A stretch of DNA of 14,969 bases from contig CAMVGI010000007.1 in the NCBI GenBank assembly GCA_947166955.1, forward strand, positions 1 through 14,969. Direction: 5' to 3'. Of the stretch, positions 91 to 12,327 are shown one piece after another. Made by a program: the position numbers and the translations under genes. The notes under the pieces are model-generated. The model saw only the letters and a program-made list of their open reading frames with translations, made no database searches and had not been told where the DNA came from. Numbering within the stretch: position 1 is the stretch's first letter; the number at the start of each line of letters is the position of its first letter. Source of the DNA: an uncultured Clostridia bacterium. GTDB lineage: Bacteria; Bacillota_A; Clostridia; Oscillospirales; Oscillospiraceae.

Positions 91-107
91 CGCGTTTGCG
101 CCTCCGT
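81..107 (-). terminator. Intrinsic terminator after the tape measure gene
   Basis: On the minus strand a 10-bp perfect stem (ACGGAGGCGC, 107-98, with GCGCCTCCGT, 93-84) closes an AAAC loop and is followed by a short T run (84-81). It starts inside the tape measure stop codon. The U tract is short, so termination is probably partial and some transcripts continue into the next tail gene. Its 3' arm can alternatively pair with the ribosome binding site of the downstream gene. Confidence 0.7.
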
Positions 108-3100
108 CAATGGTATAGATCGCGCTTCATCACGCGAAGGATCTCGTTGACCATCTCTCTTGTGACCTGAACGTGCTGCTGCACGGTCTCCGCGCTCGCG
201 CCGTTGATGGTCGTGTCGCCAAACTGGATCGTCACGGGCGCGTTGCTGCTCGTAACCGTGCTGACCGACTGCGGCGCGCCGCCGATAAGCTGCTGCCGAA
301 TGTCGCTCGGCGCGTTCATTGCCGCGCCCTGCAACTTATTCATCCGTTCCAGAAGCCCCGTCACCCTGTCCGCCATCTGCTCGGTCAGCACCCACTCATG
401 GTCTTTGAGAAGCGCAAACTCCTCGTTCTCCTTGGGCGTGCCGCCCACAACGCCTCCGCTGTGGAAAATGCCGAACTGCGGATAAAGCGGCTGGCCGTTC
501 CAGTACCAAACGCCGTTGCGCCGCTCGATGCTGCCGCCGACAATTCCCTCAAGCCGTTCGGCGAGCCGGACGTTCGCGTCCTCCAAACGCCGCCGTTCCT
601 CCGCCGAAGCGTCGAACCACGCCTCGGAGTTCGCCTTCATCTGCTGCACGATGCCGGCTCCCGCCTGCTCTCGCCAGCTTTGGCTCTCCTCTCCGTGCTC
701 TCCGGTTCTGCCGACCGTCAGATTGACGCCGTTTTCTCCGCTCATGCTCTCGATCTCCGCCTTCACGCCGGCAAGCGCCTCCTGATAGCTGCCGCCGAAG
801 CGCTCCAGCGCGGCGATCGCGTTGTCGACCGCCTCCTCGATCTCGCTCTGGAACGAGCTTCCCATCTCATAGTTCCACTCGCAAAGCTGGTCGCGCAGCT
901 TCTTGTAGTCGCCGGCGATCTCGTTGTTGAGATAGTCCATCGCCATGCGGTAGAGCTTTTCCGTTGAGGAGATGGAGTCTTTGAGAATGTCGATCTCGCT
1001 GTCCTTCTCCTGCTCGTAGGCTTTCTGCATATCGTCCAGCGCGTCCTCGGTCTTGGAAACCATGCGCTCGGACTGTGCCTCGTTGATCTCGTCTTGGAGC
1101 TTTGCCATCTCCTCGGCGATGGAGGCGCGCTCCGCCTTTGCCGCGCGGCTGTCGTCCAGCGAAAGCGCGTCATATTTGGCCTGCAGCTTGGCAAGCTCCT
1201 TCATGCGCTGCGCCATTGACTTTTGATAGTCGTTCTCGTCCTTCGCCAGCCGCAGCGCCTCCTTGCGCTGGTTGATGATCTCGGCGTATGCCTTCTTCAT
1301 CTCCTCCAGCGCCTCGATCTGCTGATTCGTGCGGTCGCGCAGCATGTCCATGATGTACTTGAGCAGATCGTCCAGCCCATTCTTCATGTCTTCGAGCGAC
1401 TTCTTGAACGCGCCCGTTTCCTTGCCGATGCTCTGCACGGCAACCTCCGCGAGATCGCGGATCGTGTTGATGTTGTGCAGCGCCGCCGCGTACTGCTCGT
1501 CCGTCAGGTCGAGCATCGCGAGGTTTGCGTACACCAGCCCCCATGTCGCGTCCGTCGCCTCGCTCGTCGCGAAGATGATCTGGTTAAGGTCTTCGATCGA
1601 ATCCTTTTCGATTGCCTCCTCCAGCCGCTTGACGTAGGTAAACGCCTGTTCGACCGCCATCTGCCGCGTCTTCGCGGCGATCACGCTCTGGATAGTCTCT
1701 TCGTTGATGACCAGAAGCCCGTTCTCGTCGCGGAGATACTGCATATACTGCTCGCCAAGCTGCAAGATGGACTGATAGGTGTCGATCGAGATGAAGCCGC
1801 CGCTTTCCGCGTACTCGTCCGCCGCGCTGTGCAGCGTCTCATACACGCTCTGGATCTCGTCCACCGCGTCATGGGCTGCGGATGCAATCGCCTTGAGGTT
1901 GTCGACAATGCTCTGCCTTGCCGCGCGAATGGTGTCGCGCACGTCCCACCAGGTCTGCGACCCCTCCTTGTTGGCGTCGTTGAATTTGGTGATGTTGTCG
2001 ATGATGCCCTCAGTGTCCTTAATGAGTCCATTGGTTGCTTCCTGCGCGTTGTCGTACTTGCCGAGGATGTTGACGGACATGTCCGCCATCGTCTCATACT
2101 TCGTCAAATCGCTCGTCGCCAGCTCGTTGAGGTGTTCAAGATTGCGGATGTAAAGGTTATTCGCCTGCGCGTCATAGTCCACCTCAAAGCCGAGCTTCTG
2201 GAGCTTTTCAACGCCTTCGGCGATCGCCTTGCGCCGCTCCTCGTTGAGATTGTGCAGCGCCGCCTGCTCGTCCTCATAGACGTCCACGAGCGACTTGTGG
2301 ATCTTGATTTGATCCCACAGTCCGTCCGTGCGCCCCAGCTTGCCGTTCAGCCTTTCCGCTTCCTCCTGCGCGTCCTCAAGGCGCTTGATCGCCTCCCGGA
2401 AGCGGTCGATCTCGGCAAAATACCTGTCCGTGTCCTTCTTGGACGAACCCGTGCTGCCGCTGCCACTGCCGCTTCCGCTCGCCTTCGGCACGCTGACCGT
2501 CACCTCCGGCAGCTCCACCTTCAAATCGTCCGTGAAGCCCTCCAGAAGCATGTCCTGATAGCGCTTCATCGCCATACCGTACTGCGTGGTCGCCTTCATG
2601 CCTGGGCTTGCGCTCGCTTCGAGCTTCTGCATCTGCGCGAGAATTTGCATCCGCTTTCCTGCAATGCCCGCCGCGTTCGCCATCTGAATGAGCGTCGCGA
2701 TCGTTCCGGCGTTCGCTGTAGCAAAATCGGTCGTCGCGATCTTCGCCTCAAGCTGCTTCTTGCGCAGCGCTTCGATCGCGGTGATGTCCGCGTTGGTCGC
2801 GCCGATCTCACGCAGCTTTTGCTCGACAACGCTCCACTCGGCGTCCGCCAAGCCAAGCGCCGCGACCTTCGCCTCAAGCCGCACGAGCCGCAGGCGGGAT
2901 TCGACCACCTCGTCCGCGTTCGTCACGCCGATCTTTTCCAACATGACCTTCACAAGCTCGGCGTTGCCCTCGCGCAGCATGTCGAGCACCGTCGTCGAGT
3001 TCATAAACTCGCTCGCCAGCGCGTCAGCCGCAGCCTGTGCCTCCTCCATGGAGGAAGCGGAGTCCATCATCACCTTGGCAAAGTTCTCATAGGTCTCATA

Positions 3101-5154
3101 GTCGCCGAACACCTTGCCGATCTCGGCAAGCGTGTCATTTGTTATCGTGCCTTCCTTGCTGAACTCCTGCAGCGCCTTGCTGAGCTTATCCACCTTGCTC
3201 TCGGCGTCGGCGAACTTCTCCGCCATCGTCGCGATGCTCGGATTATACTCCGTCAGCTCTTGCAGCTCCGCAACCAGCCTTCCAAGCTCGTCGCCGCTAC
3301 CGGCCTCCAGAATCGCTTCGTGAATCTCATGCAGCCGCTCCGCAAACTCCTCCGCGTCCTTGTTGTTGGCGTCAAATGTCGTCTTGTCGCCGAACACGCC
3401 GAGGAACAGTCCCTTTTGGTCGTATGCCTGATAATCGGTGCTCTTGTCCTTCTTCGCCTTCTTGATGACGCTTTGAACGTACTTGTCAAGCTCCTGATCG
3501 GACAAGATTTCGCCGTTCGGAAGGATCGGCGTCACGACAAGCGCGCTCTCGCCCTGCTGGATCGTCTTTGAGAGCACCGTCATTCGATCGCCGACCTGCG
3601 CGTTGGCGTCGTGCGTCTGCACCTTGCCGAGGTTGGCGTTGGTCACTTCCACCACGCGCCGGTCAAGAAGATCGACATTACCGCCGTGCGCATAGATTTC
3701 TCTGGACTTAACGCTGTACCTGTCGAGCACGTCGAGCAAGCCCTTGATCTTGCCTGCCTCGTCCTCCGCCGCGTCTCCCGTTCCTCTGAGCATATCGGCA
3801 AGCTCGTCCTTCGGAATATCCTCCGTGATCAATCCAAGCTCTCTGAGATATGCGTTGAACTCGGCGATCTTCTCGTTGGTGAGGTCTGCTTCCGTTTCAA
3901 AGAAACGCCCGAAGATGGAGTCGCGCGCCGCTTCGGGATCTCGCAGCACCGCAATGCGATCAAGCGCAAGGTCAAGCTCGCGGATCAGCCCAGCCGACTC
4001 CGGATCGTCCGGATCGAGCGCGCTTCGCAGCTTGATCGCCTCGTCCTGCAAGTCGACCATCCGCTCCAGCGCGACGTCCATAGAAGCCTGATACCCGTCA
4101 GCCGCCGCCTTGAACGACTCCTTTTCTGCGTCCGTCGCGGCGGCAGCGCCGTCAGCGACTGCCTTGTCAAACGCTTCCTTTGCGGCCTTGTAATCTTCGA
4201 CCACAGCCCTAAGTCCGCCCGCGCCGGTGTACTTCTGTTCAAACTCCGCATCGGAAAAGCCGGAATAACCAGCATACATCATTTCAAGGCCGCTGTCATT
4301 CAGCCAGTTGCGCGCATCGCCCGCCGCTTTCTCATTGACCTCGCGCCGCTTCGCGGCAATCAGGTCTTTCTGAAGCTGGATCTGCTGATCCAAAAGCTCA
4401 TTCTCGCGCTCCAAGCGCCGAAGCTCCTCGCTCTCCACAATGGAAATCGTTCCGCCCTCGCGCAGCGCGCGCAGCTCAGAAAGTCTGGCGTTATTGTCAT
4501 CCAGCTTGTCATCAAGCTCGGAAAGCTCATCTTGCAAATTCGCAAGGTCTGTCTGCAACTGCTCCAGCGTCGGATGCGCCGCCTCGTACATTTCCTTGAA
4601 CTTCTTACCCGCCGTAACAAGCAGGGGAATAAGCATCATAAGGAGCGAGATCCAGCCCATCGGCGTTTTGAGCATCAGCAGCGCCGTCTCCTTGAGTGCA
4701 AGATTATAGCCCTGCTGCGCGCCGGTCGCCGCGATCGTCGATGCTGTTTTGGCGTCCTCCGCTACCTTACTCGCAAGATATTGCAAAACGGACTCCGCAA
4801 GCTCACCGCGAAGCGCGCCGGTCGCAATCGCGTTTGCGATCGTCGCCTCGGTCAACCGATCCGTCTCTTTCAGATTGAGCGCCTTTGCAAGCGTATTGGC
4901 CTTGATGCTCATTTCTTCCGCAAGCTGTTCCACCGTGTAATTCTGTCCGGCTGCCGTCAGCTTGGTAAAGTTCAAAACCGCCTCACGCTGTTGCTGATTG
5001 AGCGCAAGCTGGCTCAGCGCTACCTTTTGCTGCGCCGCGTCAAGACTTACGAGCTGCGCCGCGTACGTTGCCTGCGCCGCGCGCGTATCATCGTAAACGA
5101 TGTTTGCGGCGCGGATGGCGTCCACAGTAGGTTTAATTGCCAATCCATTCGTAA
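107..5154 (-). CDS. Tape measure protein, C-terminal exon
   Basis: This open frame of about 1,680 codons is the second part of the tail tape measure protein, which sets tail length and is ejected with the DNA. Numbering from the TTG at 5143, it has a hydrophobic segment at about 154-178, charged heptad-like coiled coil at about 190-270, and a Gly/Ser-rich linker near 885-900. A long Lys/Glu/Gln-rich coiled coil covers about 1240-1430. A typical tape measure tail near 1560 includes FHSGGVVGG and EEFALLKDHEWVLT. The only start a gene caller would find is TTG 5143, with no ribosome binding site. The frame is open upstream to a TAA at 5179-5177, and the proposed 3' splice site falls at 5155|5154. 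It is best read as an exon joined to the frame at 6349-9174 after intron removal. A distal tail gene follows. Confidence 0.88.
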
Positions 5155-5155
5155 C

Positions 5156-5174
5156 TTCGTGAAGCCACCACGAA
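5156..5174 (-). other. Intron 3'-terminal hairpin (P9-type) before the 3' splice site
   Basis: On the minus strand TTCGTG and CACGAA form a perfect 6-bp stem with a 7-nt loop. It ends one base before G5155. The next bases, UUACGAA (5154-5148), can pair over 7 bp (one G-U) with UUUGUAA (6345-6339) near the intron 5' end. That is the arrangement expected for P10, which positions the 3' splice site. It is part of the intron and not a terminator, as no T run follows. Confidence 0.55.
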
Positions 5175-5182
5175 AATTATCG

Positions 5183-5211
5183 TTGATTTCTACTTTTGTT
5201 AGTGATATAAT
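5183..5211 (+). promoter_or_regulatory. Sigma-70/SigA-type promoter of the intron cassette
   Basis: TTGATT (5183-5188) and a perfect TATAAT (5206-5211) are separated by 17 bp, close to the vegetative consensus. The site lies in an A+T-rich stretch: 5161-5220 is about 33% G+C by eye, against about 67% at 3601-3660. It is about 31 bp upstream of the zinc-ribbon gene start and points against the phage structural genes. This would allow expression independent of the late operon, for example during lysogeny; that last point is inference. Confidence 0.8.
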
Positions 5212-5241
5212 CCATAGCAAGAAGAAAGGAGCGTGTGTTCT

Positions 5242-5934
5242 ATGGCATTGATCGTATGTCCTGAGTGCAGCCAGCAGGTGTCATCCGCAGCGGCGACTTG
5301 CCCGCGCTGTGGCTTTCCGATTGCAAGCCACCTGAAAGAACAGGAACAAAAATCCTACCATCAAAAACTGCTTTCACAGGTCGCGATGTTCCCGCTCTCC
5401 TCCGAAACGCCAATGGCAAGAGTCTGCGCAAAATGCGCCGAACCTTATTTCTACAATCCAGTCCATAAGGACAACGATACGCCCATGTGCGAATGTAATG
5501 CGCCGTCCGTTGAAATCGACATCTCACAGGAGAAAATGAGTGACGTAGCCGGCGTTCTTACAACTGACGTCGATATTTTTGAACGTCTCGTATTTCCTCG
5601 CAACATCGGCGATAAAGCGTCGCAAGAGTATAAGGCATACGTCAACAGTCTATACGGGCAACTGAACAGAAGTCTCGCGCTGCGCGGCGAACCGCCGCAC
5701 GAACCACCAGCGCCGCTCATGGATATAATAGACCGCTCCATGTGGAAGCCGATCGAACGCGCCGCGCAGAAAGAGCCGCCGCGAAATGTTCCAACCTGTC
5801 CCGTCTGCCACTCCGCAAACCTCTCTCGCATCTCAGCATCCAAGAGCTTCCTCAAAATCGCAACATTCGGTCTTGCCGGAGCCGGAGACGTCGGGAAAAC
5901 GTGGAAATGCAACAACTGCGGAGACAAATTTTGA
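5242..5934 (+). CDS. Zinc-ribbon protein encoded antisense inside the intron
   Basis: This 230-aa protein has three Cys clusters. A ribbon at C6-x2-C9 with C20-x2-C23 forms the N-terminus (CPECSQQ..., CPRCGFP). Cys pairs follow at C62-x2-C65 and C83-x-C85. A C-terminal ribbon has C186-x2-C189 and C223-x2-C226. The C-terminal layout (CPVCHS, a hydrophobic Gly-rich stretch, then GKTWKCNNCGDKF) is common in uncharacterised Firmicutes zinc-ribbon proteins. No catalytic motif is recognised, and there is no HNH, GIY-YIG or LAGLIDADG signature, so it does not look like a homing endonuclease. ATG 5242 is preferred because AAGGAG (5226-5231) is ten bases upstream; an in-frame GTG at 5233 is too close to that site. 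It has its own promoter, opposes its neighbours and is A+T-richer, so it looks like an acquired moron-type gene. Its role is unknown. Confidence 0.85.
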   Translation: MALIVCPECSQQVSSAAATCPRCGFPIASHLKEQEQKSYHQKLLSQVAMFPLSSETPMARVCAKCAEPYFYNPVHKDNDTPMCECNAPSVEIDISQEKMSDVAGVLTTDVDIFERLVFPRNIGDKASQEYKAYVNSLYGQLNRSLALRGEPPHEPPAPLMDIIDRSMWKPIERAAQKEPPRNVPTCPVCHSANLSRISASKSFLKIATFGLAGAGDVGKTWKCNNCGDKF

Positions 5935-5943
5935 GGAATACAA

Positions 5944-6096
5944 ATGCTGTTCTTACTCATTGTCCTTATCTTTATTCTCGCTCCGATCACTGACAAGATG
6001 GGATTCAAGTCACAATCAGAACAGTGGTTTGGCATATTCGCTATCATATTGCTGCTCCTGATTGTAGCGATAGGCATGGGAAGTTGTACTGCTTAA
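5944..6096 (+). CDS. Small membrane protein with two hydrophobic segments
   Basis: A 50-codon frame starts at ATG 5944, nine bases after the zinc-ribbon stop. GAGGA (5933-5937) overlaps that stop codon and sits six bases upstream, so the two genes are probably translated from one mRNA. The protein has hydrophobic stretches at residues 2-16 (LFLLIVLIFILAP) and 30-46 (FGIFAIILLLLIVAIG), joined by a short polar loop (DKMGFKSQSEQ). This predicts a hairpin of two membrane helices. No family is recognised. Its tight coupling to a zinc-ribbon gene suggests a two-component cassette. Superinfection exclusion or a host-interaction function is possible but speculative. Confidence 0.72.
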   Translation: MLFLLIVLIFILAPITDKMGFKSQSEQWFGIFAIILLLLIVAIGMGSCTA

Positions 6097-6138
6097 TGGT
6101 CTTTCCGGCTTGCGGCGACCAACCGCATATCATTTTTG

Positions 6139-6164
6139 ACAGCCTGCCCGTTTGGGCGGGCTGT
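6139..6164. other. Hairpin at the convergent edge of cassette and intron core
   Basis: ACAGCC (6139-6144) pairs with GGCTGT (6159-6164), and GCCC (6146-6149) with GGGC (6154-6157), around a GTTT loop. In plus-strand RNA the position between the two stems (T6145/G6158) is a U-G wobble, giving 11 continuous pairs. In minus-strand RNA the same position is an A-C mismatch. It lies 43 bp past the small membrane gene and just after P7 on the intron strand. It could be the cassette terminator, though it lacks a good T tail, or the intron's P9 stem, or both. Confidence 0.45.
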
Positions 6165-6348
6165 TGGATTTGGAGCACCCCATCGCGATCCGTAGACCGC
6201 GCCGACATTATGCTCTCTGAACCATCTCACGTTGCCGTGAGCTTGGCTGCGGATTACCGTTTTCGGCTTCCCGGACGAGGATGATCTAAACTCGCCGCTC
6301 CTTGCGGAGCCATGTTCGTCGGTTTTTCCAATACCCCCTTACAAACGG

Positions 6349-9174
6349 TCAAGCCGCTTGCTCGTTCCGTGTCACCACCGGGGTATAGGCGGGCGCAATT
6401 ACGGAACCCGTCACTTTGGGTTCACCCGCCGCTTTATTCAGTTGTGTAAATGCGGAAATAACGCCGCCGACAAACATGGTTCCGAAGATACCCAGCTTGT
6501 CAGTCAGCGCGTCGATGATGTCGGATAACGTCTGGAAGAACGCGAGCACCGCTTTCATGTCGTCGGTTTCAAGCATGTTCTGCGCGATACCCACCCACGT
6601 CTCCTTCAAGGCGTTCGCGCGGTACTGCACGCTGTCCATGACCTTCGCCATCTCGCGCTCGGCGCTGCCGGCGCTGTTCTCCATCTTCTTCATGGCATCC
6701 GCCGCCTGCGAGAAGTTAGAAAGAATGGCGCTGCCAACCTGCGCCTGCCGCTTGCCGAAGAGCGCTTCGAGAAGCTGCGCGCGATTCTTGTCGGTCAGCT
6801 CATCCCAGATGTCCGCGATGTCCTGTAAGATCGCGTAGGTCGAGCGATAGGCATTCGGATCGCCGACCTCAAAGAGGCTCACGCCCTTACCGCCGTTGCT
6901 CGCGACCTTCGTGAGGTCTGCGATCTTGCCGGTGAGGATCGCGACATCCTCGCTGTATTCCTCGGTCGATTCGTCGTAGCCGCGAATCCGCATGGAAAGC
7001 GTCTTGAGCGCGTTGCCCGTGGTCGCCGCGTCGCGCGTGATCTCAACCGCAGCCGTTGCCAGCGCGATCGTCTCCTCAAACGAGTTGTTCGCCGCCGACA
7101 TTGCGCTCGATGCGCGCGTCATCACCTCAACCAAGTCCTTGTTGCTGACGGCAAACTTGTTTCCGATCTCGTTGATCTTGGAGATGATGCCGTCCAGCGT
7201 GTCATTGACGTCCACACCGTACGCCTTGATGATGCTGACCAGTCCGTCCGTCGCCGTCTGCTGATCCATGCCGGGAGACACAGCGGCAAAAATGGCGCTG
7301 TTTTCCGCGAGCTTCGCGGCGTTCTGCAAGGCATATCCGAGTCTCGCCCATTCCGCCGTCTGCGAAATAACCGCCTCGGTCGTCACGTTGAGCTGCTTCG
7401 CCGTCTCGTTCGCACTCTTGTAAAACGCCTCGTACTCCTCGTTCGTTGCTTTCGTCACCTTGCGCAGGTCGATCATCGCGGTATCAAGGTCAACAACCGT
7501 CTGGATGCCCTGCCTCAGATACCGAAGCGCACGGAACAAAAGCGTCGTCGCGCTCACCCATTCAAGCACCTTGCCGAGGTTGTTCTTGAGGATGTCGCCA
7601 AGCGACTGCACATTCTTGCCGGCGGCCTTGACGTCGCTCTTGAACTTGTTGAACTCTGCGCGCCACTTCGAGAGATCTCCGGCGTTGTTCACGCGATCGA
7701 GATTGACCAAAAGCTGCTCAAACTGCGCGTTGAGTCCCTTATCCGTTTTCAGCGCGCTCCACGTCCGTCCGACCGTCAGCAGATCCGCCTTTGCTTTTTC
7801 GATATTCGGGATCAGCTTTTCATCGCGAACGTCCATGTTCTGCGCCTGCGTCAGCGCCGCCATCTCGGTATTCACCAGCGCAAGCGTCTGCCTGAGCCTG
7901 TTGTACGTCTCGATCTTTCGATTGGCGTCCTGCTCGTTGTTCACCGCAGCGCTGAGCGTGCGAAGCTGATCCATATTCGTCCGCAGCGTTTCAGTCGGGT
8001 GAACAAGATTCTGAAAGCGTTTATACGCAGTGCCGATCTGCGATGTCATAACCGACATGCTGCTGTTGATCGTCTCGATCGTCGCGTTAAGCTCCTGCCC
8101 CGCCTTAAAGGAGCCGACGTCGCCCTTCAATCGGTCAAACTGATCCGCAAAGCTCGTCAGGCTCTTGCTGTCGAACGCCGTGGAAAGCTCTGCGCGCAGA
8201 TCCTCGATGCGCTTTTCAAAGTCGCTCGTCAAAAGTCCGGTCGCCTGCAGCTTCTTTGCGTAGGCGTCCAGCTCGCTTGAGTAATCTGCGTTGACCTGCC
8301 ACACCGTCTTGGTGCGCAGCTCCGTTGCAACATGCTCCGCCTTGGAATATTCCGTAGCAAGCCGTTCAAGCGCCTTGATCTGCGCATCAATGTCCGCCTG
8401 CTGAGATTTGCTCAGCGCGCCGCTTTGTCCTCTAAGCTGCTCAATCGAAGCGGAGATTGCCTGATACCGCTTGTTCAGTTCGTTCAGGTGGTCTTCCCCG
8501 ACCACGCCGTTTGCGCGCGTCAGACCTTCATACCGTGCCTTGACGTTTGCAAGCTCCGCTTCCAGCTTGGTAAGAGATGCCGTGCGCTTATCGGCTGCCG
8601 CCTGCTCCTTCCTTGCGGCGGCGTCGCTTGCCGCATTGAGCTTTTCGATGTTCAGCGTGACGTCCTTTACGACCTCGCTGACCTTTTTGCCGTCCTGCGC
8701 ATACTGCTGCGTCAGCACGACCTCCTTGCCAAGTGCATCGCGACCGGAGATGTCAAGCTGAAGCAAACGCTCCTTCTCGCGCCCGACCTTCACCCACTGC
8801 GCATGGATTTTGCCGACCTGTACGTCCATTCCCGTCAGATTCCGCGTCATGGACTTCATCAGATCCGAACTTGCGTCGATGCCGCTCCCACTCATGGCCT
8901 CGCGCAGCATCTTCTTCGCGTCGCCAGTCACCTTCACACCGATGTTCACAGGCTCCACATGGATATTCGAGATCTGTCGCGAAATCTCGCTCTGCATCCG
9001 CGATGCGGCATTACCGTCCAGCGTCACGCCGACCTTGATGCTGCTCTTCTGATTGATCTTCTCCGCGATGGACGGAAGCTGTGCCGAAATCCGCTGCGCT
9101 GACGCTTCCTCGTCCGCCTCAAGCCGTGTTCTGACCACTACCATCAAATCGTCGTTTTCAGCCAAGCTCCTCAC
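6349..9174 (-). CDS. Tape measure protein, N-terminal exon (TP901-type core)
   Basis: This 941-codon frame holds the N-terminal part of the tail tape measure protein. The first 560 residues are helical and Ala/Glu/Lys-rich. Residues about 560-760 match the phage minor tail / TP901 tape measure domain, with LDTAMIDLRKVTKATNEEY, AEWARLGY, ALATAAVEITRD and TLSMRIRGYDESTEEY. A hydrophobic Gly-rich stretch (LGIFGTMFVGGVISAF) lies near 895-910. The frame ends at TGA 6351-6349. If the intron is removed near 6381, the last 11 codons are intronic and the chain continues into the 107-5154 frame. The start is uncertain: GTG 9174 overlaps the upstream stop as GTGA, while TTG 9165 gives a more typical MAENDDL. 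Both have poor ribosome binding sites, so translational coupling to the gp10-like gene is likely. Confidence 0.9.
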   Translation of the reverse strand: MRSLAENDDLMVVVRTRLEADEEASAQRISAQLPSIAEKINQKSSIKVGVTLDGNAASRMQSEISRQISNIHVEPVNIGVKVTGDAKKMLREAMSGSGIDASSDLMKSMTRNLTGMDVQVGKIHAQWVKVGREKERLLQLDISGRDALGKEVVLTQQYAQDGKKVSEVVKDVTLNIEKLNAASDAAARKEQAAADKRTASLTKLEAELANVKARYEGLTRANGVVGEDHLNELNKRYQAISASIEQLRGQSGALSKSQQADIDAQIKALERLATEYSKAEHVATELRTKTVWQVNADYSSELDAYAKKLQATGLLTSDFEKRIEDLRAELSTAFDSKSLTSFADQFDRLKGDVGSFKAGQELNATIETINSSMSVMTSQIGTAYKRFQNLVHPTETLRTNMDQLRTLSAAVNNEQDANRKIETYNRLRQTLALVNTEMAALTQAQNMDVRDEKLIPNIEKAKADLLTVGRTWSALKTDKGLNAQFEQLLVNLDRVNNAGDLSKWRAEFNKFKSDVKAAGKNVQSLGDILKNNLGKVLEWVSATTLLFRALRYLRQGIQTVVDLDTAMIDLRKVTKATNEEYEAFYKSANETAKQLNVTTEAVISQTAEWARLGYALQNAAKLAENSAIFAAVSPGMDQQTATDGLVSIIKAYGVDVNDTLDGIISKINEIGNKFAVSNKDLVEVMTRASSAMSAANNSFEETIALATAAVEITRDAATTGNALKTLSMRIRGYDESTEEYSEDVAILTGKIADLTKVASNGGKGVSLFEVGDPNAYRSTYAILQDIADIWDELTDKNRAQLLEALFGKRQAQVGSAILSNFSQAADAMKKMENSAGSAEREMAKVMDSVQYRANALKETWVGIAQNMLETDDMKAVLAFFQTLSDIIDALTDKLGIFGTMFVGGVISAFTQLNKAAGEPKVTGSVIAPAYTPVVTRNEQAA

Positions 9175-9707
9175 CGTCCTTTCTTAGTAATTACCTGCAA
9201 GCCCTGCCGCCTAAGTCCTTCCGCAAGTGCTTTCGCGGCTTTCCCGCCGCGCAGGACTTTTCGCGTCTTTTCGACAAACGGACGCGCCTTTGCGTCCGGC
9301 CAGTAATCGTAACCGTATCCGCTCGGATTGTAGATGCCGTACTCAACAAGCCCTGCGATACTCTCGTCACCTGGCGTCGTCGAGTATCCGCCAACGCCGT
9401 CGATCGGACGCAGGCTCACGCCGTTTTTATACGGATTCGGCGGCGTATCGTTCTCGACGTACAGCGCGCCGAGCTTGAGCGAGGCGTTGTTGATGACAAG
9501 GTTGTGCTCCGTGTCCAAAAGACCGCCGCGTGCGCCGCGACGGACATAATGCTTCGGCTTGTACTTGTCGTACACCTCGCTTTGAATGGCGGCGTGCTCG
9601 ACGTCGGCCACCTCATCCAGCACCTCGCCGGACAATGCGTCGTTCACCATCGGACGCAGTTTTTGATTGGCATATTTCAGCGCCTCCGAAATGGACATTG
9701 CTTTCAT
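9171..9707 (-). CDS. HK97 gp10-like tail/neck protein
   Basis: The 178-aa product starts at ATG 9707, eight bases after AAAGGAGG. It resembles the HK97 gp10 family seen in many Firmicutes phages. An early helix contains EVADVEHAAIQSEVYDKY, then a YVRRGARGGLLDTEH strand, a middle part ending in LVEYGIYN, and the family-like C-terminus ARPFVEK...ALAEGLRRQGLQV. Members of this family act at the head-tail interface or in tail completion. A position immediately upstream of the tape measure gene, rather than upstream of the tail tube gene, is less usual for the family. Its stop overlaps the tape measure GTG by 3 bases, indicating coupled translation. Confidence 0.7.
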   Translation of the reverse strand: MKAMSISEALKYANQKLRPMVNDALSGEVLDEVADVEHAAIQSEVYDKYKPKHYVRRGARGGLLDTEHNLVINNASLKLGALYVENDTPPNPYKNGVSLRPIDGVGGYSTTPGDESIAGLVEYGIYNPSGYGYDYWPDAKARPFVEKTRKVLRGGKAAKALAEGLRRQGLQVITKKGR

Positions 9708-9729
9708 CGCGCACGCCTCCTTTCGATCG

Positions 9730-10365
9730 TTATTTCACGAGCTTCAAGCCCGCCTTGACAACCGCGTCACGCAGCGCGTCCGGCTCAGTTCCTTCCGCTG
9801 CCTTGGCGAGCTTCGCGGCATAATCCATCATCGCTTCCGCGTCGATCTCGCTCACCTTTTCAGTAAGCGCGTTCAAAAGCTCGCGCGCGGCGTCGGCCGC
9901 AGCGCTCACGCTCTTGCCGCTCCCATTCAGCTCACGCGCCTTGCGCCACTCGACGGCGCTCTGCGCGAGGAACACAAGCTCGCTCATCATCTCGCGGTAG
10001 CCGCCGCCGGAAAAACCGTCGAGATTCAGCGCGACATACAGCGCATCCATCGCGTCGAGATCAAGCTGGCTTTCGCCGCCATCCTTCGCGCGCACGGAAA
10101 GCGCAGGCAGATCCGTACACATCTGAAGAATTGTCGCGCGCAGCATCGGCGTAAAGTATTCCGGGCGATACTCGCCGCGCTCGTCAAAGCATCCGATCAG
10201 GACACGCGCGATAAACGCGGATTTTTCAGCCGTCGACAAATGCGTGCGGATCGTCACGATGACATCCTTGCCGTCCTCCAGACGCAGGTGCGCCTCCGCA
10301 GTGCCGCTCGGCTTTGCCTCCTTGAGATACGTTCTCACCGTATCCACAGAAATTTTCTTGCTCAT
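9730..10365 (-). CDS. Phage tail-module protein, possible tail assembly chaperone
   Basis: This 211-aa protein starts at ATG 10365, which overlaps the PhoH-like stop in the four-base ATGA arrangement. Its ribosome binding site (GGAGG) lies inside the end of the preceding gene. The N-terminus (MSKKISVDTVRTYLKEAK) is followed by a short strand-rich segment (AEAHLRLEDGKDVIVTIRTHLS), and the rest is mostly helical with Ala-rich stretches. There are no Cys clusters, signal peptide or membrane segments. It lies between the tail tube and tape measure genes, where siphoviruses encode tail assembly chaperones, and an acidic, helical protein of this size would fit. I see no slippery sequence or second frame for the usual -1 frameshift product. 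The chaperone assignment is from position only. Confidence 0.55.
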   Translation of the reverse strand: MSKKISVDTVRTYLKEAKPSGTAEAHLRLEDGKDVIVTIRTHLSTAEKSAFIARVLIGCFDERGEYRPEYFTPMLRATILQMCTDLPALSVRAKDGGESQLDLDAMDALYVALNLDGFSGGGYREMMSELVFLAQSAVEWRKARELNGSGKSVSAAADAARELLNALTEKVSEIDAEAMMDYAAKLAKAAEGTEPDALRDAVVKAGLKLVK

Positions 10366-11114
10366 TCCTTATCCTCCATGCTCTTTTGAGCGATTACAAA
10401 ATTGAGATCGTCCGCCCTCTGGCTGATCCAGCCGCGATGATTGACTACGAGCTTGCACACCGCCGTTCGCTCGTCGCCGGCAAACCAATTGAGATAATGC
10501 ACAAAACCGCTGTGCTCAGGGTTTTTATAAAGATCGTTCTGCCCGTCGTGTCCGATCACGATGACCTTGCAGCTATCGTGCATCCGCGTGAGCACCTTTT
10601 TCAGCTCGTCGAAGTAGTAGTTTTGCGCCTCGTCGATGATGACGACCTGCTCCTCGAAGTTCGCGCCGCGCAAAAACGTGTGTGTCATACAGCGGATATA
10701 CGCCGTGCCGTTCTTTTCGTTCAGAATATCGCCGAACGCCGCCGTGTTCATGTTCACGCCGATTTTTTCCAGCGCCTCATAAAACGGCTCAAAGTACGGC
10801 TCCGACTTCTCTTCGATCGTGCCTTTCAAATATCCCTGCTTCTGCTCCTGCGTTGGCGAGGCAATATAGGAGATACCCTTGTAGCGCCCATATCGGCAGA
10901 GAAGATCGGCCGTCGCCGTCGCGATCAGCGTCTTGCCGGTGCCTGCCTTTGCGTTGCAAAAGACGATGTTCTTATCTCCGCTCCAGATAGCGTCGCGAAA
11001 CGCGATCTGATACTCGTCGAGCTTGAGTCCGTAAAACGGATGGTCTGCAAGCGTCTGCGGCGCTTTTTCCTTTGGCGCGTCCTGCACCGTGTTGGGAGCA
11101 CTCTTTCGTGCCAT
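10362..11114 (-). CDS. phoH: PhoH-like P-loop ATPase
   Basis: The 250-aa product is a PhoH-family ATPase, related to the N-terminal half of SF1 helicases. Visible motifs are a Walker A, NAKAGTGKT (54-62); the PhoH motif THTFLRGANF (144-153); a Walker B with DEAQ, VVIIDEAQN (157-165); and a sensor-like VIGHDGQND (186-194) followed by an Arg-bearing segment near VVNHRGW. PhoH proteins are common in phages. An RNA- or DNA-associated ATPase role is assumed, but phage functions are poorly defined. The start at ATG 11114 has AAGGAG overlapping the ClpP-like stop. It forms an unbroken run with the ClpP-like and RuvC-like genes and overlaps the next gene by 4 bases. Confidence 0.9.
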   Translation of the reverse strand: MARKSAPNTVQDAPKEKAPQTLADHPFYGLKLDEYQIAFRDAIWSGDKNIVFCNAKAGTGKTLIATATADLLCRYGRYKGISYIASPTQEQKQGYLKGTIEEKSEPYFEPFYEALEKIGVNMNTAAFGDILNEKNGTAYIRCMTHTFLRGANFEEQVVIIDEAQNYYFDELKKVLTRMHDSCKVIVIGHDGQNDLYKNPEHSGFVHYLNWFAGDERTAVCKLVVNHRGWISQRADDLNFVIAQKSMEDKE

Positions 11115-11127
11115 GCGCGATCACTCC

Positions 11128-11769
11128 TTAAAGAATAGTGTCGAGATCGGTCACGATCTCATCGGCAATGCCAAGCTCGATCATCTCGTCGCTGAACAGG
11201 AACCAGTCGCGGCGATAATTCTTGTCAAAGACCTCCTCGTCGATCTTCGTCACGCTGAGGATGTACTTCTTCACGCGCCGCTCAAGCTCCTTGGTAAATT
11301 CAAGGTTATCCAGCATCTTGCCGATGCTTCCGATCGCACCGGAGGAACCGTCGTGAATAAGACAGCTCGTGTGCTCGAAGATATATCGCCGATGCCCCGC
11401 CATCAAAAGCAGTCCGCCGGCGCTGTAAACGCGGCCGAGACCGATGGTGTAAACCGGCGTCTTGGAAAGGCGGATCGTGTCGATAATGTTCATCACAACG
11501 TCCACGCTGCCGCCGTCCGAATTGATCAGGATGCGAATGGGCTTGCGTTTCTCCGGCTCGATGCCGCGATCCTCGCGGTTCCACTTGCGGATGTAGTGCG
11601 CGATGTCAAGCGTGCCGTCCTCGATGTCGCCGTTCCACTCGATCTCGCGGTTTTTAAGCCCGCGATAATATTCAAGCATGGCCGGTTCGGGGAGATGCGT
11701 GTCCATCAGCTCGGAAACGTCGATGAAGTCCTCCTCCATCTCAAAGCCCTTGTTCTTGTCGTTCATCAT
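11128..11769 (-). CDS. clpP: ClpP-like serine protease
   Basis: The 213-aa protein has the ClpP/crotonase-like protease fold signature. It has an oxyanion-type strand, ILINSDGGSV (80-89); the nucleophile in VYSAGGLLLMAG (Ser116); the catalytic His in LIHDGSSG (His139); and a likely Asp in RRDWFLFSDEMIELGIAD (Asp188). The last segment matches the ClpP C-terminal 'F.S..EA.E.GL.D' pattern. The usual ClpP Pro in INSPGGSV is Asp here. Phage ClpP-like proteins often process capsid or portal proteins, but this one lies among tail genes, so its target is open. A strong AGGAGG lies eight bases before ATG 11769; ATG 11766 is equally possible. It lies 12 bp after the RuvC-like gene. Confidence 0.9.
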   Translation of the reverse strand: MMNDKNKGFEMEEDFIDVSELMDTHLPEPAMLEYYRGLKNREIEWNGDIEDGTLDIAHYIRKWNREDRGIEPEKRKPIRILINSDGGSVDVVMNIIDTIRLSKTPVYTIGLGRVYSAGGLLLMAGHRRYIFEHTSCLIHDGSSGAIGSIGKMLDNLEFTKELERRVKKYILSVTKIDEEVFDKNYRRDWFLFSDEMIELGIADEIVTDLDTIL

Positions 11770-11781
11770 AATCGCGTCCTC

Positions 11782-12327
11782 CTATTGCTCTTTGATTTCG
11801 CACACTCCTTCGGAAGTGATGCTGATATTGTGCAGACAGTAATGCCCCAGCATAATGCTGTCCGCAAGGTTATCGTCCTCCGTCTCGATGCCGTAGACGT
11901 TCTTTGCCGCCTGAATCGAGAGGATCTTGGACGTCTTTTTGCCGCTTTCGATCTCGGTCACGTTCGCCTTGATCTCCTTGCTTGTCCTACCCCTTGCCTT
12001 GCAAAAGCTCTGCCACTGCGCCGGTGGAACCAAACCGTAAAGGTATTCGTTCTTTTCGCAAAGATTGACGAGTACGCCTTGGAGCTGAGCCAGTCTCTTA
12101 AAGGACTGCACATTCCTGCGCAGTTGAATGTCCTCCAGGAAAACCGCATCGACGCCCTGCTTGCGTATCACTCCATCCAGCAATGCTTCGATTTGCAAAA
12201 CAGCCTGTTCAAACGTGCATTTTTCGCTCGGATACGACCACACACCGTAATCGAGCAGTTTCTTCTTCTCATAATCGAACACCGACCATGCGCCGTTGCG
12301 CGCCTGATCGACCGCCAAAATCTTCAT
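11782..12327 (-). CDS. ruvC: RuvC-like Holliday junction resolvase
   Basis: The 181-aa protein has an RNase H-like fold signature of RuvC. The first strand carries the metal-binding Asp7 (ILAVDQARNGAWSV), a second acidic residue is Glu65 in DAVFLEDIQL, and a C-terminal acidic cluster contains Asp151, Asp152 and Asp156 (ETEDDNLADSIMLGHY). The length fits phage RuvC-type resolvases, which cut branched DNA before or during packaging. A Lys/Arg-rich middle part (SFCKARGRTSKEIKANV) is a plausible DNA-contact region. ATG 12327 follows GAGAAGGA. Only 18 bp separate the start from a strong terminator, so expression depends on readthrough or on an upstream promoter that I did not identify. Confidence 0.87.
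   Translation of the reverse strand: MKILAVDQARNGAWSVFDYEKKKLLDYGVWSYPSEKCTFEQAVLQIEALLDGVIRKQGVDAVFLEDIQLRRNVQSFKRLAQLQGVLVNLCEKNEYLYGLVPPAQWQSFCKARGRTSKEIKANVTEIESGKKTSKILSIQAAKNVYGIETEDDNLADSIMLGHYCLHNISITSEGVCEIKEQ

Follow-up and report, generated by a model that had tools for sequence, protein, structure and literature searches.

An antisense zinc-ribbon gene in a predicted group I intron of a phage tape measure gene, and its possible part in superinfection exclusion

The window, by which we mean the whole 14,969-nucleotide stretch of DNA analysed, is a fragment, with phage late genes on its minus strand. One of them, the tape measure gene (TMP), is split in two by a group I intron on the same strand. 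The open reading frame (ORF) at 6349-9174 (minus) matches PhageMin_Tail (PF10145, 3.1e-23) and the tape measure group phrog_4211 (2.5e-65), and the ORF at 107-5143 (minus) matches the end of phrog_4211 (1.2e-23). From these matches and the joining of the frames, the 5′ exon was placed at 6424-9174 (minus; 917 codons, with PhageMin_Tail at residues 586-807) and the 3′ exon, which begins NGLAIKPTVDA, at 107-5149 (minus). The joined exons form a single open frame of 2,597 aa with one stop, at its end, and read ...NKAAG/NGLAIKP... across the joint. The intron between them has predicted ends at 6423 and 5150, both set by hand, and a length of 1274 nt (5150-6423, minus). The last bases of the 5′ exon, GGCGGGU, find their pairing partner GCCCGCC at position 30 of the intron, whose final base is G.

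The catalytic core occupies 6136-6423 (minus), as positioned by the frame join and by alignment. Six introns were aligned, namely those of the window and of loci L002, L021, L036, L017 and L060, and helices P3 (6318-6322/6202-6206), P6 (6236-6241/6226-6231), P7 (6211-6215/6173-6177) and P8 (6195-6201/6184-6190), all on the minus strand and including the P3/P7 pseudoknot, showed 92.7% of cells paired, with changes on both sides in 21 of 39 pairs. None of 500 shuffles scored as high, and sliding the partners against each other gave only 34.8-46.4% pairing. For instance, the P3 pairing CCGAC/GTCGG appears elsewhere in the alignment as TCACC/GGTGA and CTACC/GGTAG, while the row of L060 fits P3 poorly. 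P1, formed by exon positions 6424-6430 with 6388-6394 (minus), was left out of this count. At the curated threshold, neither the window nor L001-L007 had an Rfam match (RF00028 included), and the group I model recognised the window's intron weakly and in part, with 16.4 bits where the cut-off is 50 (E 0.32). Despite this weak score, the interruption is, judging from covariation and the frame join, a genuine group I intron. An SmY-like Rfam match at 6086-6163 was discarded as a chance match to a GC-rich hairpin (6139-6164), which is read as the intron's P9. In L004, a differing hairpin was seen by eye at the matching place, and some 280 bases more than in the window, at about 7000-7100, separate P7 from the P6 region.

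Between this hairpin and the 3′ exon, a gene cassette lies on the plus strand, antisense to the TMP. Its promoter, TTGATT-17-TATAAT with an extended -10 element (TGN), stands at 5183-5211 within 62 bases of the 3′ exon and is followed by the ribosome-binding site AAAGGAG (5225-5231) and by a gene for a 230-aa zinc-ribbon protein with Cys clusters (ZR; 5242-5934). A 50-aa ORF with two hydrophobic stretches (5944-6096) is tightly coupled to ZR, in that the GAGGA ahead of it overlaps the ZR stop codon. The sequence-only reading had described promoter, cysteine-rich ORF and coupled short ORF correctly, and its intron is confirmed as well, but the intron is larger than the interval given there, which ended at 6164 with the hairpin. 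Likewise, its G+C values counted by eye were accurate (33.3% at 5161-5220, 40.0% at 5941-6000 and 66.7% at 3601-3660), but the low values are local, since the whole cassette (5183-6100) has a G+C content of 49.8% and ZR itself 53.1%. No sense-strand homing endonuclease gene was found in the window's intron in the ORF list or with Pfam.

ZR consists of a variable N-terminal part (about residues 1-180) and a conserved C-terminal ribbon (about residues 181-230). Comparison with the ZR of L002 gave 47, 38 and 104 differences at codon positions 1, 2 and 3, respectively, and a dN/dS of about 0.12; this value comes from the L002 comparison because the other comparisons were saturated at synonymous sites. 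By this codon comparison, ZR is under strong purifying selection as a protein, which excludes that the stretch is conserved solely as intron RNA. The short ORF is poorly conserved: only its first residues are shared with L002, no counterpart was seen in the three plus-strand frames after ZR in L004, and family searches returned nothing better than E 0.07. The proposal that the two proteins form a conserved pair is thus not supported, ZR being the constant member. The N-terminal CxxC...CxxC ribbon of ZR resembles PF10571 (22.1 bits, cut-off 29), PF13240 (21 bits, cut-off 25) and phage groups such as phrog_6586; these matches span only about residues 1-40, both Pfam ones are sub-threshold, and the C-terminal ribbon with its hydrophobic loop is not what they cover. 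Neither a nuclease-like domain (Pfam, phage groups, structure search) nor a predicted membrane helix was found in the window's ZR. An AlphaFold model built from 15 sequences had a mean pLDDT of 79.4, with the C-terminal loop below 50. In the structure search, neither the PDB nor the viral set gave a hit at E ≤ 0.001; the rows in its table, zinc knuckles, were not used.

Homologues of ZR do exist. A protein search with the window's ZR found 13 relatives, and a search with the shorter member from L006 found 406 proteins, which have a C-terminal ribbon of about 50 residues in common and very different N-termini. Some members are short, such as P0092 and P0109 (82 aa), and the C-terminal residues are conserved across 43 ZR proteins. 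Loci with genomic context were drawn from scans of viral and genome contigs. The resulting census comprises 50 loci, with the window included and each contig counted once (L018, L019, L022-L024, L032 and L033, from contigs already represented, add no further loci), which form 44 groups at 90% identity. ZR lies antisense at the TMP in 42 of the 50 loci and in 38 of the 44 groups, which marks it as more than random cargo. Classes were assigned by hand: ZR lies between both TMP halves in 34 loci, at the 3′ half only in seven (L015, L041, L043, L046, L051, L052 and L056; in L041 the 5′ half stands in a non-fitting order) and at the 5′ half only in one (L016). Weaker assignments of the 3′ half are those of L060 (by size and position), L039 (by an 84% DNA match to L046) and L047 (weak match, 1e-4). 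In the remaining eight loci (L014, L027-L029, L038, L040, L054 and L058), ZR lies elsewhere. In L054 it is encoded in sense (3742-4176, plus) directly upstream of an unsplit TMP, and a fragment resembling ZR's own C-terminal coding sequence was seen just ahead of it.

In addition, 22 whole records were searched with a ZR profile whose members, those of the window and L006 excepted, had been collected without genomic context. It matched 26 times in 19 records, always at the TMP insert or, in L074, against the 3′ exon (12 positions checked by script, 14 by comparison of coordinates). L073, L076 and L078 had no ZR match and an unsplit TMP; of these three, only L073 is closely related. Among annotated phages, no protein matched ZR, and a DNA search found one record, the human faecal phage MT837120 (L017; outside the 50-locus count). 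Its TMP carries the window's intron type, and a ZR-like C-terminus lies antisense at 7356-7667 (minus), about 2 kb further on.

With the unsplit TMP of L054 as reference, the ends of the 5′ halves mostly fall at residues 470-503 and the starts of the 3′ halves at 483-527; L042, L057 and L036 deviate from this common insertion region. At their 5′ side, the introns fall into several unrelated-looking sequence types, one in the window, L002, L004, L021, L036 and L060, another in L006, L007, L020 and L048, a third in L034, L049, L050, L059 and L062, and further types beside these. L030 gave a group I match (19.5 bits, E 0.016) beside the first type. An Rfam E-value scan of L004, L006, L007, L013 and L015 found no group I match, nor did one of stretches from L050 and L006; by motif and alignment, the remaining introns (L006, L013, L015, L050 and kin) are probably group I as well. 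Combined, these data show that many distantly related phages have a member of this one protein family at the same place, antisense and immediately next to the 3′ splice site. The TMP 3′ half of L030 (398-7456) and L053 (4408-7717) appears to be spread over several ORFs, unlike that of the close relatives L035 and L020/L052, by sequencing error or decay.

The promoter recurs upstream of ZR. In 17 of 35 loci, the 120 bases ahead of the gene contain TTGNNN-16 to 18-TATAAT, compared with a mean of 0.5 and a maximum of 3 in 300 dinucleotide shuffles, and TATAAT alone is present in 25 of 35 compared with 10.0 in shuffles. A looser best-score test against plain shuffles gave values ≤ 0.05 in 10 of 37 loci (median 0.32), and our claim is based on the stricter, spaced pattern. 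Together with the frame join, the covariation and the census, this promoter count supports the earlier proposal that the intron is a landing site for independently expressed genes of opposite orientation. That proposal had missed the fixed place of ZR by the 3′ exon and the fact that its variable half moves together with the adjoining TMP segment.

This joint movement was observed in three close pairs of loci, in which the ZR N-terminus and the first 67-80 post-intron TMP residues were replaced as one block, while the ZR C-terminal ribbon and the remaining TMP were not. In the L018/L019 pair (contigs of L006/L007), the TMP 3′ halves are alike until 74 residues from their start, unlike across the splice site, promoter and ZR N-terminus, and 95% identical again from the C-terminal ribbon. 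The flanks of L020/L053 agree to 99.4% over 7.5 and 5.5 kb, and between them the start of the 3′ half (80 residues) is replaced along with ZR and its neighbours. In L041/L043, with flanks of 92% and 99%, the replaced block takes in 67 residues from the start of the 3′ half as well as the ZR N-terminus, and a 68-base patch at the exon start escapes replacement. Given in the order TMP body, ZR C-terminus, TMP head and ZR N-terminus, the identities are 93, 92, 25 and 19% for L006-L007, 85, 92, 45 and 44% for L041-L043, and 96, 52, 24 and 16% for L020-L053. For the more distant phages L074 (against L006: 52, 54, 65 and 56%) and L015 (against L041: 35, 54, 59 and 62%), the order is reversed, with the TMP head and the ZR N-terminus being more alike than the other two parts. 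A clean exchange was found in 3 of the 14 pairs compared; L030-L035 is partial (TMP head 70%, then the ZR middle lost), and L039-L046 has kept both TMP head and ZR N-terminus. The window itself is not among the exchanged loci; the counterpart of the segment in question is formed by the first 80 codons of its 3′ exon (4910-5149, minus).

Across 35 of 37 loci (L035 and L039 left out), Mantel tests correlated the ZR N-terminus with the TMP head (r 0.224, p 0.0005; 0.214 with the TMP body removed), compared with 0.079 (p 0.12) for the ZR N-terminus with the TMP body and 0.057 (p 0.14) for the ZR C-terminus with the TMP head. The correlation of ZR N-terminus and TMP head is small. Orphan C-terminal ribbons without an N-terminal part lie at L020:9206-9355, L020:10179-10322 and L042:11102-11230, as expected from repeated replacement at a conserved anchor. 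Polymorphic toxin/immunity cassettes likewise combine a conserved part with an exchanged specificity part and leave orphan modules behind. ZR shows the same modular exchange and orphans, with the difference that its partner is structural and that no toxin activity is implied. Adjacency alone could produce a block exchange, and a single recombination tract could move the neighbouring TMP head and ZR N-terminus without any functional tie, but neither the variability of the ZR N-terminus nor the gene's staying in place is explained by adjacency. The joint exchange thus suggests that ZR and the neighbouring piece of TMP may be a matched pair.

The inserts range in size from below 1 kb (L036, L062) to about 15 kb (L031), and several hold ZR nearly alone (L036, L050, L062). 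In 16 bounded inserts, 29 antisense and 21 sense ORFs of at least 100 aa were found besides recognised ZR, whereby the antisense ones still include the ZR of L030 and L035 and one in L042. For a sample of the cargo, 76 proteins were hand-picked from 114 ORFs plus six others, some from loci with one TMP half. Among the best 25 of 49 Pfam families in this sample were AAA_15/21, Peptidase_S24 with HTH, DUF2513, BRO, NYN, GmrSD_N, ToxN, AIPR and IS elements. Ten proteins preselected as defence-like were searched with PADLOC at 1e-5, and six of them matched: AbiQ (6.6e-30) and NsnA (1.2e-41) in L034, AbiU (4.3e-23), NsnB (7.4e-61) and NsnC (1.1e-11) in L055, and NsnB (7.8e-74) in L026. Unlike ZR, this defence-like cargo lies on the sense strand. 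Furthermore, SLATT/DUF4231 was found in L056 and, below the cut-off, a PemK-like protein in L020. A recurring antisense neighbour of ZR is an HExxH protein (HEFTH-like setting), encoded at L025:8533-9231, L030:8180-8857, L041:8704-9450, L042:9286-10020 and 10354-11091, and L057:8556-9308, for which Pfam gave no convincing match.

With the anatomy of the locus firm, we infer its function as follows. By analogy with known exclusion systems, we tentatively propose that the prophage expresses ZR as the partner of the TMP segment next to it, with homotypic superinfection exclusion as the most likely purpose. ZR would have its own promoter drive its expression in the prophage, and its N-terminal part would recognise the TMP segment encoded beside it. 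As a cytoplasmic zinc ribbon, ZR would, as we suggest, meet the TMP as the latter enters; recognition, in the cytoplasm or at the membrane, would bar the DNA of phages arriving with the same segment from entering. Splicing would take the ZR gene out of the TMP message and thereby preserve the essential TMP. The partner gene would be physically tied to its target, so that ZR and TMP segment recombine together, and more defence-like and toxin-like genes would have accumulated at the same intron site. More broadly, and again with less than even confidence, antisense ZR, in the intron of the very TMP that it would recognise, may form with the TMP segment a widespread, nested and inseparable specificity pair, which is exchanged as a block and divides temperate phages into exclusion groups based on the TMP.

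According to the consulted parts of the literature, exclusion by Ltp of phage TP-J34 and by gp15 of HK97, both from long-tailed phages, is escaped through changes in the TMP (PMC3952083, PMC10883804). On this basis, an exclusion factor would be the simplest reading of a prophage protein that is paired with a TMP segment, and the superinfection-exclusion role raised in the sequence-only reading stands as an analogy through this TMP link. The likeness proposed here is one of function, namely a prophage protein whose specificity resides in the incoming TMP. Going by the same passages, Ltp is encoded in the lysogeny module, whereas ZR is a zinc-ribbon protein encoded inside the TMP. Lysogeny of the ZR phages is likely. 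An integrase is present in 21 of 22 records of relatives; this would be expected of temperate phages but does not single them out, as all 14 control genomes have one too and the records may include host DNA. For TMP introns, the passages on ICP1 (PMC10448857) describe splicing in this phage and a TMP often interrupted by homing endonuclease genes. As far as these passages go, both cases have a group I intron of the self-splicing type in the TMP, but the passenger of the ICP1-type introns is a homing endonuclease gene, and that of the introns described here is ZR, which runs antisense from a promoter of its own and is tied to the 3′ exon. Such an antisense gene in a TMP intron was not found described in the one open-access library that was searched.

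The exclusion reading has to be weighed against several others. The eight loci with ZR elsewhere count against it, and the sense ZR of L054 fits late expression better; the modest outcome of the looser promoter test, the small Mantel correlation and the negative results for a membrane helix and a structural match in the window's ZR also speak against it. The intron may instead be a neutral landing site, in which ZR is one of many accessory genes collected harmlessly and is exchanged with the TMP head through adjacency between conserved recombination anchors. That the cargo is varied, partly defence-like and spread over both strands (29 ORFs antisense, 21 sense) speaks for this explanation, and the nearest conserved anchors are indeed the TMP body and the ZR C-terminus. 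However, it leaves unexplained why one family recurs in the same place (38 of 44 groups at the TMP), why ZR is common to introns of unlike sequence and why the inserts of L036, L050 and L062 hold ZR almost alone, and we consider it somewhat less likely than exclusion. The pairing of ZR with a TMP segment, as indicated by joint exchange, would also be expected of a dedicated chaperone or assembly factor acting on that segment during tail building, and the sense ZR immediately upstream of the unsplit TMP in L054 is in line with such a role. Nevertheless, late transcription would oppose an antisense gene with its own promoter in the late message, and the record of L073 has a related, unsplit TMP without a ZR match; this explanation seems unlikely to us.

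Two further explanations appear more remote. As the conserved promoter is directed toward the intron core, the antisense transcript rather than the protein might act, by pairing with the core and restraining splicing and TMP expression in lysogens. The strong purifying selection on the ZR protein and the C-terminal residues conserved in 43 proteins argue against this, making it improbable. Least probable of all, ZR could be a DNA-binding homing factor that aids the spread of the intron. The use of one TMP insertion region by introns of unlike sequence is consistent with homing, but no nuclease-like domain was found in ZR, and the short 82-aa members P0092 and P0109 are too small for one.

If the exclusion reading is true, it would provide a reason for keeping a group I intron: thanks to the intron, a structural gene that is essential and the gene for its specific counterpart can occupy opposite strands of a single locus, so that both change together. 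Furthermore, it would define a large and readily recognised set of superinfection-exclusion genes in prophages of Firmicutes-like hosts and indicate which part of the TMP is open to recognition. The TMP intron is also marked as a gathering place for defence genes, as illustrated by the L031 insert of about 15 kb.

Several other features were noted in the loci. Near ZR, zinc-ribbon ORFs with predicted membrane stretches lie at L045:9573-10256, L057:6903-7891 and L080:5238-5579. In L007, a 478-aa sense ORF (9031-10467, minus) without a clear Pfam match splits the TMP upstream of the ZR insert and is absent from the near-identical L006. A second TMP insert is present in L001-L003, and its sense ORF in L002 (8196-9125, minus) matches DUF2726 (8.8e-10) and perhaps encodes a homing-type nuclease. 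Transposase genes lie within the TMP inserts of L037 (IS110-type, 8406-9599) and L047 (OrfB/TnpB-type, 11139-12248).
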